Assembly: GCF_014252255.1 (NCBI RefSeq)
Contig: NZ_CP059213.1
Location: forward strand, 558,001 to 622,000
Source: Blattabacterium cuenoti
Lineage (GTDB): Bacteria > Bacteroidota > Bacteroidia > Flavobacteriales > Blattabacteriaceae
Length of the DNA: 64,000 nt
Reading direction: 5' to 3'
Shown here one piece after another: positions 51,057-53,371 of the stretch; position 1 is the stretch's first letter; the number at the start of each line of letters is the position of its first letter. Below the pieces are notes generated by a model. That model did not search any database and was not told the origin of the DNA. It saw only the letters and a list, made by a program, of their open reading frames with translations. Position numbers and translations under genes: made by a program.

Positions 51057-51084
51057 AATTTTTTTTCTAATTTATGAAAAATTT

Positions 51085-51648
51085 TTACTCTCTAATTCTT
51101 TCTATATAAGATCTATTATCCGTATTAATTTTAACAAAATCTCCTATATCTATAAAAGAAGGAACCAATAATTTAATTCCTGTTTCTAAAATAGCAATTT
51201 TATTGGTATTATTAATAGTATATCCTTTTTTTACAATTTCTGTATGTTTTACTTTTAAAATAACCGTAGAAGGCATCTTTAAAAATAAAAAAATCTTTTC
51301 TTTTTCATTTTTAATATGAAAAAAAATAGTAATCCTCATTCCCTCTTTTAAAAAATCTATATTTTTAATTAGTTTTTTTTCTATTTGTATTTGATCATAA
51401 TTTATTTCATTCATGAAATAAAAAAAATTTTTTTCTTTATATAAATACTGATAAAAATTAGATTCTACTTTTACTTCTTTAATTTTATGTTTTGATGAAA
51501 AGTTATTTTCTAAAATATTACCTGTAATTATATTTTTTAATTTAGTTCTTATAAAAGCATATCCTTTTCCTGGTTTTACATGAAGAAAATCAATTATTTT
51601 ATATACTTCTTTATTCCATTGTATATATAAACCTTTTTTAATCTTCAT
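51085..51648 (-). CDS. efp: Elongation factor P
   Basis: Helps the ribosome through polyproline stretches. The 187 residues begin MKIKKGLYIQWNKEVYKI; the acceptor loop HVKPGKGYAFIRTKL places the conserved Lys at 28. The OB domains follow, ending TDNRSYIERIRE, typical of flavobacterial EF-P. The N-terminus is a few residues shorter than in free-living relatives. In flavobacteria lpxA precedes efp and an lpxD-like gene follows it; both are missing here. Confidence 0.94.
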   Translation of the reverse strand: MKIKKGLYIQWNKEVYKIIDFLHVKPGKGYAFIRTKLKNIITGNILENNFSSKHKIKEVKVESNFYQYLYKEKNFFYFMNEINYDQIQIEKKLIKNIDFLKEGMRITIFFHIKNEKEKIFLFLKMPSTVILKVKHTEIVKKGYTINNTNKIAILETGIKLLVPSFIDIGDFVKINTDNRSYIERIRE

Positions 51649-51662
51649 TTTTTTTTTTAATA

Positions 51663-52982
51663 TTATTCGTAATTTTTAGTTATTTTAGCCATAACTTCAG
51701 CTTCTACTACAAGTTTATTATTTACATACCCTCTTCCTTGCATATGAACTATTCCTCTTTTCAATGCTTCTAATAAATCTACTTGAAAAATAATGATATC
51801 TCCAGGTACTATTTTATGTTTAAATTTAACTTTGTCTATTTTTAAAAAATAAGTAGAATATAATTCAGGATTATCTAATTTATTTAATATAAGTATTCCT
51901 CCTACTTGAGCTATAGCTTCTATTTGTAAAACACCAGGCATAATTGGTTCTTTTGGAAAATGTCCTATAAAAAAAGATTCATTCATAGTTACATTTTTAA
52001 CTCCTGTTATACTATTTTCTGTTAAATCTATAATTTTATCTACCATAAGAAATGGAGGTTTATGAGGTAAAATTTTCATAATTTTTTTGATATCTAAAAT
52101 AGGTTTACTTGCTAAATTCAATTTAGGAATATCATTTTTTTTGAATTTTTTAACTTTTTTAATTATTTTTTTTAAAAATTGCATAATAATATAATTATCT
52201 GGCTTATAAAAAATTAATTTACCTTTTAATTTAGCTCCTATTAAAGTTAAAAAACCTATAATATCTAAAATAAAATGTTTAGCTATTTCATTAGATTCTT
52301 GAAAATTAACATCAAAAAAAGAAAAAAAAGGAGACATAAATTTTTTTTTTCTTTCCAATTGATTTTTTAATAAAAAATTATTTTTTTTTTCATGAATAAT
52401 ACAAAAATTTTTTGAATTAGCTATTTTTTCTTTAAATTGATTGATACTTTTTAGTATTGCATTTTGTATATTCATAAATTTTGATTCAAAATCTATAATA
52501 CTTATAATTTCAAGTTTTTTAGAAGGTAAAGCTATAATTAATGATCCTGTTTTTTTATTTTCATAATAAATAATTTCTTTTATTGAATAATATTTTCTAT
52601 TTGCAGTTTGTTCTATAACTCCAACTTTTTCAATTGCTTCTACAAAAAATTTAGAAGAACCATCCATTATTGGAATTTCTATATTATCTAATTCTATAAT
52701 AATATTATCTAAATCCATTCCAGTAAGAGCAGCGAGAATATGTTCAATTGTATAAATTTTAAATCCATTTTTTTCTAAAATAATACCTTGATCTATTCTT
52801 TTTTTTAATAAAAAATAAAAATGAGCTTTTATACAAAATTTTTCTTTTATATCTGTTCTTATAAAAATAAATCCTGTATGTTCTGGAGCAGGTTTAAAAG
52901 TAATAGTTACTTTTTTTTTAGTATATAAACCGAATCCCTGTAAAGAAATTTTTTTTGTAATAGTTTTTTGTTTATCAAACAT
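51663..52982 (-). CDS. lpxC/fabZ: LpxC-FabZ fusion with degenerate LpxC half and intact FabZ half
   Basis: Bacteroidetes fuse the lipid A deacetylase LpxC (about 1-280) with 3-hydroxyacyl-ACP dehydratase FabZ (about 290-439). FabZ looks fully functional: LPHKPPFLMVDKI, then FFIGHFPKEPIMPGVLQIEA with catalytic His341 and Glu355. In LpxC the first half is recognisable (TIEHILAALTGMDLDNI with Glu80 and His81; EIPIMDGSS), and zinc ligands His236 and Asp240 persist. By position, however, E. coli Lys239, Asp246 and His265 correspond to Phe237, Phe244 and Asn263, and the stretch around 195-230 is eroded. FabZ serves the FabF/FabG/ACP pathway encoded in this window. Confidence 0.92.
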   Translation of the reverse strand: MFDKQKTITKKISLQGFGLYTKKKVTITFKPAPEHTGFIFIRTDIKEKFCIKAHFYFLLKKRIDQGIILEKNGFKIYTIEHILAALTGMDLDNIIIELDNIEIPIMDGSSKFFVEAIEKVGVIEQTANRKYYSIKEIIYYENKKTGSLIIALPSKKLEIISIIDFESKFMNIQNAILKSINQFKEKIANSKNFCIIHEKKNNFLLKNQLERKKKFMSPFFSFFDVNFQESNEIAKHFILDIIGFLTLIGAKLKGKLIFYKPDNYIIMQFLKKIIKKVKKFKKNDIPKLNLASKPILDIKKIMKILPHKPPFLMVDKIIDLTENSITGVKNVTMNESFFIGHFPKEPIMPGVLQIEAIAQVGGILILNKLDNPELYSTYFLKIDKVKFKHKIVPGDIIIFQVDLLEALKRGIVHMQGRGYVNNKLVVEAEVMAKITKNYE

Positions 52983-53091
52983 ATAATAAGAAATTTATTC
53001 CCTTTTTTTAGGATTTCAATTTTATTAAAAAAAATATTTAAAAAAAATAAAAAAATTTATGTAATTTACTAATCGTTTATTTTTTTAAAAT

Positions 53092-53170
53092 ATGAATTTT
53101 TTAAGACGTATTATTTTTTTTTTATAGGTTTTATTATTGGTATTTTAATTTTATTTTTTTTATTAAAATA
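53092..53170 (+). pseudogene. Possible remnant of a small single-span membrane protein
   Basis: From ATG 53092 the frame reads MNFLRRIIFFL and stops within a T10 tract (53114-53123). Adding one T would extend it as a membrane helix, IGFIIGILILFFLLK, to a TAG at 53169. The shape (short positive N-terminus, then one helix) resembles many small flavobacterial membrane proteins, but no family can be named. The rest of the 52983-53216 spacer shows nothing else. Chance is a real alternative in DNA this T-rich. Confidence 0.25.
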
Positions 53171-53216
53171 GAAAAAATAGTATAAATAAAAATTTTTTAA
53201 GTAAAAGTAAAATAAT

Positions 53217-53366
53217 ATGAAAAGAACATATCAACCTTCTAATAGAAAAAAAGTTAATGTTCATGGGTTTATGAAAAGAATGAATACAAAAGCAGGACGT
53301 ATGATTATATCTAATAGAAGAAAAAAAGGAAGAAAAAAATTAGCAGTTTCTAATTATAAAAAATAA
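53217..53366 (+). CDS. rpmH: 50S ribosomal protein L34
   Basis: A 49-residue gene. It begins [18 protein letters not shown] and continues with [20 protein letters not shown] and GRKKLAVSN, the L34 signature throughout, with typical very basic composition. The TAA stop is at 53364-53366, 5 nt from the end of the convergent M14 peptidase gene. No dnaA or rnpA is adjacent, unlike the common bacterial arrangement, but Bacteroidetes often separate them. Confidence 0.96.
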
Positions 53367-53371
53367 TCAAA

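Follow-up and report, generated by a model that had tools for sequence, protein, structure and literature searches.

A putatively dead LpxC domain in Blattabacterium, seemingly retained through its fusion to FabZ

By its residues, the LpxC half of the fused LpxC-FabZ protein of the cockroach endosymbiont Blattabacterium is a catalytically dead domain, and we put a probability of roughly 0.77 on the explanation that it persists as a pseudoenzyme held together by zinc, which its fusion to FabZ constrains in cis and which erodes wherever FabZ gains a start of its own. The analysis started from a window of 64,000 nt (G000:C1:558001-622000) of a 628,934 bp genome assembled as one contig, and was extended to 49 Blattabacterium genomes, 37 of which carry the fusion.

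The fused gene and the predicted LpxC active site

The 439-aa open reading frame matched the Pfam domains LpxC (PF03331) at residues 5-274 with 187 bits and FabA-like at residues 305-429 with 104 bits, and the whole protein scored 549.6 bits against the NCBIfam fusion model PRK13188, for which the cut-off is 465. The FabZ half exceeded the cut-off of PRK00006 (160.4 against 113 bits) and stayed slightly below that of TIGR01750 (154.9 against 155.15). In its fusion, domain order and fold the protein is the same as the bifunctional LpxC-FabZ of Bacteroidota described by PRK13188, but the window locus is without the LpxC catalytic residues, the acyl tunnel and the adjoining lpxD and lpxA genes, and only FabZ can be functional here. 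The positions of all features are given in Table 1.

Table 1 Features of the fused lpxC-fabZ locus; residue counts refer to the 37 Blattabacterium fusions, reference residues to E. coli LpxC
Feature	Position	Strand	Basis or remark
Fused lpxC-fabZ gene	51663..52982	-	439 aa, frame intact
LpxC half, residues 1-282, putative pseudoenzyme domain	52137..52982	-	PF03331 and AlphaFold model
FabZ half, residues 293-439 and stop, dehydratase intact by sequence	51663..52106	-	profiles and residue table
Glu80-His81, equivalent to Glu78 and predicted zinc ligand His79	52740..52745	-	kept in 37/37
Acyl-tunnel stretch, shortened, residues 194-235	52278..52403	-	42 aa
His236, equivalent to predicted zinc ligand His238	52275..52277	-	kept in 36/37
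Phe237, replacing Lys239	52272..52274	-	Lys in 0/37
Asp240, equivalent to predicted zinc ligand Asp242	52263..52265	-	kept in 35/37
Phe244, replacing Asp246	52251..52253	-	Asp in 3/37
Asn263, replacing His265	52194..52196	-	His in 8/37
FabZ active-site His341 (GHFP)	51960..51962	-	37/37
FabZ active-site Glu355	51918..51920	-	37/37
efp	51085-51648	-	EF-P intact in window
fabZ-efp gap, 14 nt, site of lpxA in relatives	51649..51662	.	gene-order comparison
efp-sucD gap, 28 nt, site of LpxD-like gene in relatives	51057..51084	.	gene-order comparison
Gap upstream of lpxC, site of lpxD in relatives	52983..53371	.	gene-order comparison
LptD_2-type LPS-assembly barrel (L231)	G000:C1:17812-18576	+	outside window

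The segment NEIAKHFILDIIGFLTLIGAKLKGKLIFYKPDNYI aligned without gaps to P. aeruginosa LpxC (35 letters in the reference segment), and this alignment bore out the reading of the first-pass annotation, in which Lys239, Asp246 and His265 (E. coli numbering) are replaced by Phe237, Phe244 and Asn263 and the zinc ligands are kept. The predicted ligands His79, His238 and Asp242 and the base Glu78 all have their equivalents in the window protein (His81, His236, Asp240 and Glu80). Among LpxC-FabZ homologues of other Bacteroidota, 77/77 carry all eight of the residues Glu78, His79, Thr191, His238, Lys239, Asp242, Asp246 and His265, and the three losses are therefore not chance variation; the comparison agrees with the earlier proposal that this half is catalytically dead. 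Lys239 and His265 are part of the phosphate-binding region of LpxC, and the zinc site is placed at the interface of its two domains (PMC10254716).

The stretch that forms the acyl-chain tunnel of E. coli LpxC (residues 195-217, with Met195, Ile198, Phe212 and Val217; PMC10254716) has been shortened to a variable extent. The interval from Phe192 to His238 measures 68-70 residues in the 77 functional homologues, 17-51 in Blattabacterium and 42 in the window protein, with in-frame deletions of variable size among the fusions, and the conserved K-G-G...N-A-I-V tunnel residues are missing in essentially all 37. Thr191 is kept in 11/37, and the three genomes with Asp246 are G001, G041 and G047. Counted over all residues that are universal in functional homologues, Blattabacterium still has 33/69 in LpxC and 36/40 in FabZ, in which the catalytic pair is intact, as had been noted for the window protein (Table 1).

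These distributions suggest an order of events. Catalysis was probably lost already in the common ancestor of Blattabacterium, and the decay may have been stepwise, beginning with Lys239 and the tunnel stretch and proceeding to Asp246 and His265. Genome G043 is without Asp246 and His265 and its sister trio has both, and the state of His265 differs between the sisters G006 and G014 and among G018, G021 and G045, from which it follows that these two residues were probably lost later and more than once. We also observed that the replacing residues are themselves conserved, with Phe at site 246 in 22/37 genomes and Asn at site 265 in 24/37, a pattern that suggests new packing constraints at these sites rather than free drift.

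An AlphaFold model of the LpxC half superposed on P. aeruginosa LpxC (7q01) with a Z score of 33.5 and an rmsd of 2.2 Å over 255 residues. Its mean pLDDT was 82.7, falling below 50 in the tunnel stretch (residues 194-228). The LpxC fold thus appears to be kept in the predicted structure, where the model, which drew on aligned functional relatives, indicates compatibility with this fold and is no proof of it.

Lipid A genes and the gene neighbourhood

Profiles of LpxA (PF13720), LpxB (PF02684), LpxD (PF04613) and LpxK (PF02606) matched none of the 49 near-complete Blattabacterium genomes, and all four matched the related genome of a Geopemphigus endosymbiont (G053), which served as the positive control. 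The hexapeptide proteins left in the window genome were considered as LpxA or LpxD and excluded, since they were identified as a sugar nucleotidyltransferase, DapD, CysE and an alternative GlmU. Gene order gave the same picture. The order lpxD - lpxC/fabZ - lpxA - efp - lpxD-like is found in Aequorivita and, followed by sucD and with an intact LpxC, in the Geopemphigus symbiont; in the window, lpxC/fabZ is followed after 14 nt by efp, and efp after 28 nt by sucD. Both the absence of the lpxA and lpxD-like neighbours and the loss of lipid A synthesis, as the first-pass annotation had proposed them, were thus confirmed at the level of gene content, and lipid A synthesis is, by this evidence, lost in Blattabacterium. 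The efp gene of this neighbourhood is itself subject to change: about 19 Blattabacterium genomes have no EF-P at this locus, and in at least two (G028 and G004) it is truncated, apparently through several independent losses.

Metabolic modelling had arrived at the same view of the pathway. According to one Blattabacterium model, which leaves LPS out, LPS cannot be made (PMC3287516), and the passages of the 2013 model that deal with BLBBGE_037 treat its LpxC step (EC 3.5.1.108) as an orphan, drop the lipid IVA pathway and reassign the gene to FabZ activities, regarding the LpxC activity as an annotation error (PMC3819652). That the LpxC activity is a misannotation in Blattabacterium is in this respect already known from that part of the 2013 work. 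The same passages do not mention a fused pseudoenzyme domain, the decay of its residues, selection on it or its loss, which are the points added here. Furthermore, a literature search covering papers outside subscription found none that links Blattabacterium to a dead LpxC domain, and neither the decay series of LpxC nor the releases of FabZ were described in any paper within that scope.

One observation sits oddly with a cell without lipid A. An LptD-type barrel (PF19838) is present in 36/49 Blattabacterium genomes, with an intact frame of 756 aa in the window genome and an omega of about 0.20 in two clades; the LptD profile PF04453 matched only G026, as Bacteroidota have the PF19838 form. 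The persistence of this outer-membrane protein counts against our preferred explanation and would fit a cell that still makes lipid A, either from precursors of the host or a co-symbiont or with lpx genes that were missed. Given four enzyme profiles that match G053 but none of the 49 near-complete genomes, and the omission of LPS from both metabolic models, we regard continued lipid A synthesis as extremely improbable.

Selection on the two halves and their parting

Selection was estimated with codon model M0 (GY+F3X4) over the 37 genomes with the fusion. Omega was 0.130 for the LpxC half, with 0.084 for its domain 1 and 0.158 and 0.171 for the two parts of domain 2, and 0.052 for FabZ, compared with 0.062 for lepA, 0.071 for sucD, 0.091 for pth, 0.106 for an M14 peptidase and 0.121 for a CAAX protease as controls. 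Five recent, little-saturated clades gave similar values (LpxC 0.115-0.162, domain 1 0.063-0.129, domain 2 0.159-0.297, FabZ 0.036-0.093). In Aequorivita, which has a functional fusion, omega was 0.018 for LpxC and 0.010 for FabZ. At equal FabZ distance, the divergence of domain 1 is close to that seen among functional enzymes, and that of domain 2 is roughly double. A six-taxon deep set (FH) was left out of these conclusions because of saturation and unstable bootstraps, which reached 1.0. The LpxC half is thus relaxed, chiefly in domain 2, yet far from neutral.

The low omega foreseen for FabZ was found; the value near 1 foreseen for LpxC was not. The overall value of 0.13, the domain 1 values of 0.06-0.13 in recent clades and the almost invariant zinc site amount to the strong purifying selection that the first-pass annotation had named as speaking against its own proposal, and its picture of a dead domain welded to FabZ has to be divided: retention through the fusion stands, the notion of neutral baggage that is merely carried along does not. 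In its strict form that notion, which lets the LpxC half drift without constraint as long as the frame stays open, is refuted by unsaturated clades in which omega lies far below 1; even though the lost catalytic residues, the variable in-frame tunnel deletions and the repeated loss of the domain would all be expected of it, we consider any version of it very unlikely in view of these omega values and the zinc site. Neither a broken frame nor an omega near 1, the marks of a pseudogene, was found in the LpxC half of the 37 fusions. Like other pseudoenzymes, it has kept its predicted fold and zinc ligands, has lost catalytic residues and is under purifying selection, but unlike them it has no known partner or regulatory role and has been lost repeatedly.

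These losses point to where the constraint lies. FabZ is present in 49/49 genomes, and its gene neighbourhood is the same in all stretches examined. The LpxC profile matches 37/49, all with an intact fusion frame, and the remaining 12 have open stand-alone fabZ frames of 156-190 aa. On a six-gene tree, 8 losses of the LpxC half were mapped: in G007 (the sister of the window genome), G024, G002+G016+G017, G004, G015, G009+G029+G038 (a grouping with only 65% support), G008 and G032. Relics of LpxC were counted only where they were collinear (G002, G004, G016 and G017); other tblastn matches lay on the wrong strand or had low identity and were rejected as AT-rich chance matches. In G016 and G017 a frameshifted and stop-filled LpxC relic is found upstream of fabZ, whose 190-aa frame starts with an ATG inside the former LpxC C-terminus (MES.FIFYNPDNYIIMQFLKEL), and G002 and G004 have shorter relics upstream of fabZ. 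A separate intact LpxC gene was found in none of the 49 genomes. Retention through the fusion, as first proposed, is therefore in keeping with the distribution of both halves. A function in trans would be expected to have preserved a separate intact gene in at least one genome, and since LpxC decays after FabZ has acquired a start of its own, the constraint probably acts in cis and seems to come from the covalent linkage to FabZ.

The same distribution bears on the idea that the LpxC half is still a zinc hydrolase, with Glu78 and the zinc acting on another substrate. The near invariance of Glu78 and the three predicted zinc ligands would be explained by such an activity. Lys239 and the acyl tunnel are gone in 37/37 fusions, His265 and Asp246 in most, there is no LpxA to supply substrate, and the unlinked half decays without any lineage retaining a separate gene, which together make a remaining hydrolase highly improbable.

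Source of the constraint on the LpxC half

The course of events under our preferred explanation, a pseudoenzyme constrained in cis by FabZ, may have been as follows. Once the ancestor of Blattabacterium had lost lpxA, lpxB, lpxD and lpxK, deacetylation by LpxC would no longer have been needed. FabZ is presumably essential in Blattabacterium, and as LpxC forms the N-terminal half of the FabZ protein, a stop, a frameshift or misfolding there would take FabZ down too. With LpxC and an essential FabZ in one protein, the gene could not simply break; catalysis would have been lost while purifying selection kept the LpxC half folded. We infer that what constrains the LpxC half is foldedness, so that FabZ is not spoiled in cis. 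The LpxC half presumably still binds zinc as a structural staple, and the retained site, which joins the two LpxC subdomains, would probably hold the fold together. Escape would be open only via a new FabZ start codon in the linker or the LpxC tail, after which the LpxC part would decay and be deleted.

The omega of domain 1 (0.06-0.13) speaks against this explanation to some degree, as it points to a stronger constraint than a mere demand not to misfold might give, and a positive structural role is therefore possible. The LpxC half might have been repurposed as a scaffold or chaperone in cis that aids FabZ in folding, assembly or work, as might be suggested by a domain 1 that, at equal FabZ distance, is as constrained as its functional counterparts, the retained two-domain predicted zinc site and the predicted fold of high confidence. 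FabZ is a stand-alone protein in most free-living bacteria outside Bacteroidota, which counts against such a role, as do the 8 losses of the LpxC half without detectable acceleration of FabZ. The ratio after release was 1.09 (permutation p = 0.29), and the absence of a measurable acceleration favours a hostage over a helper. We therefore hold a positive role in cis to be rather unlikely. We give the same doubtful standing to the more specific idea of a zinc-stapled module on which FabZ relies while fused and which is shed only where FabZ evolved independence; if true, an enzyme of lipid A synthesis would have become a cis-acting scaffold of fatty-acid synthesis.

As in gene erosion of insect endosymbionts generally, the pathway goes first in Blattabacterium and the leftover genes decay; what differs from the usual course is that the erosion of LpxC is held at the level of the domain by the fusion and freed by a new start codon. 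The 49 genomes with about 8 releases amount to a replicated natural experiment on the slowing of genome erosion by a gene fusion, and they provide a measure of the purifying selection on a dead domain that is due only to its weld with a live one. The annotation 'bifunctional LpxC/FabZ' in Blattabacterium should not be equated with lipid A synthesis. Finally, outside the window, a lytic-transglycosylase-like protein of the window genome (L083:1932-3002; G000:C1:43931-45001) was seen to contain a long His/Pro tract of low complexity, with HHPP repeats; the corresponding gene of G008 and that of G011 have no such tract.
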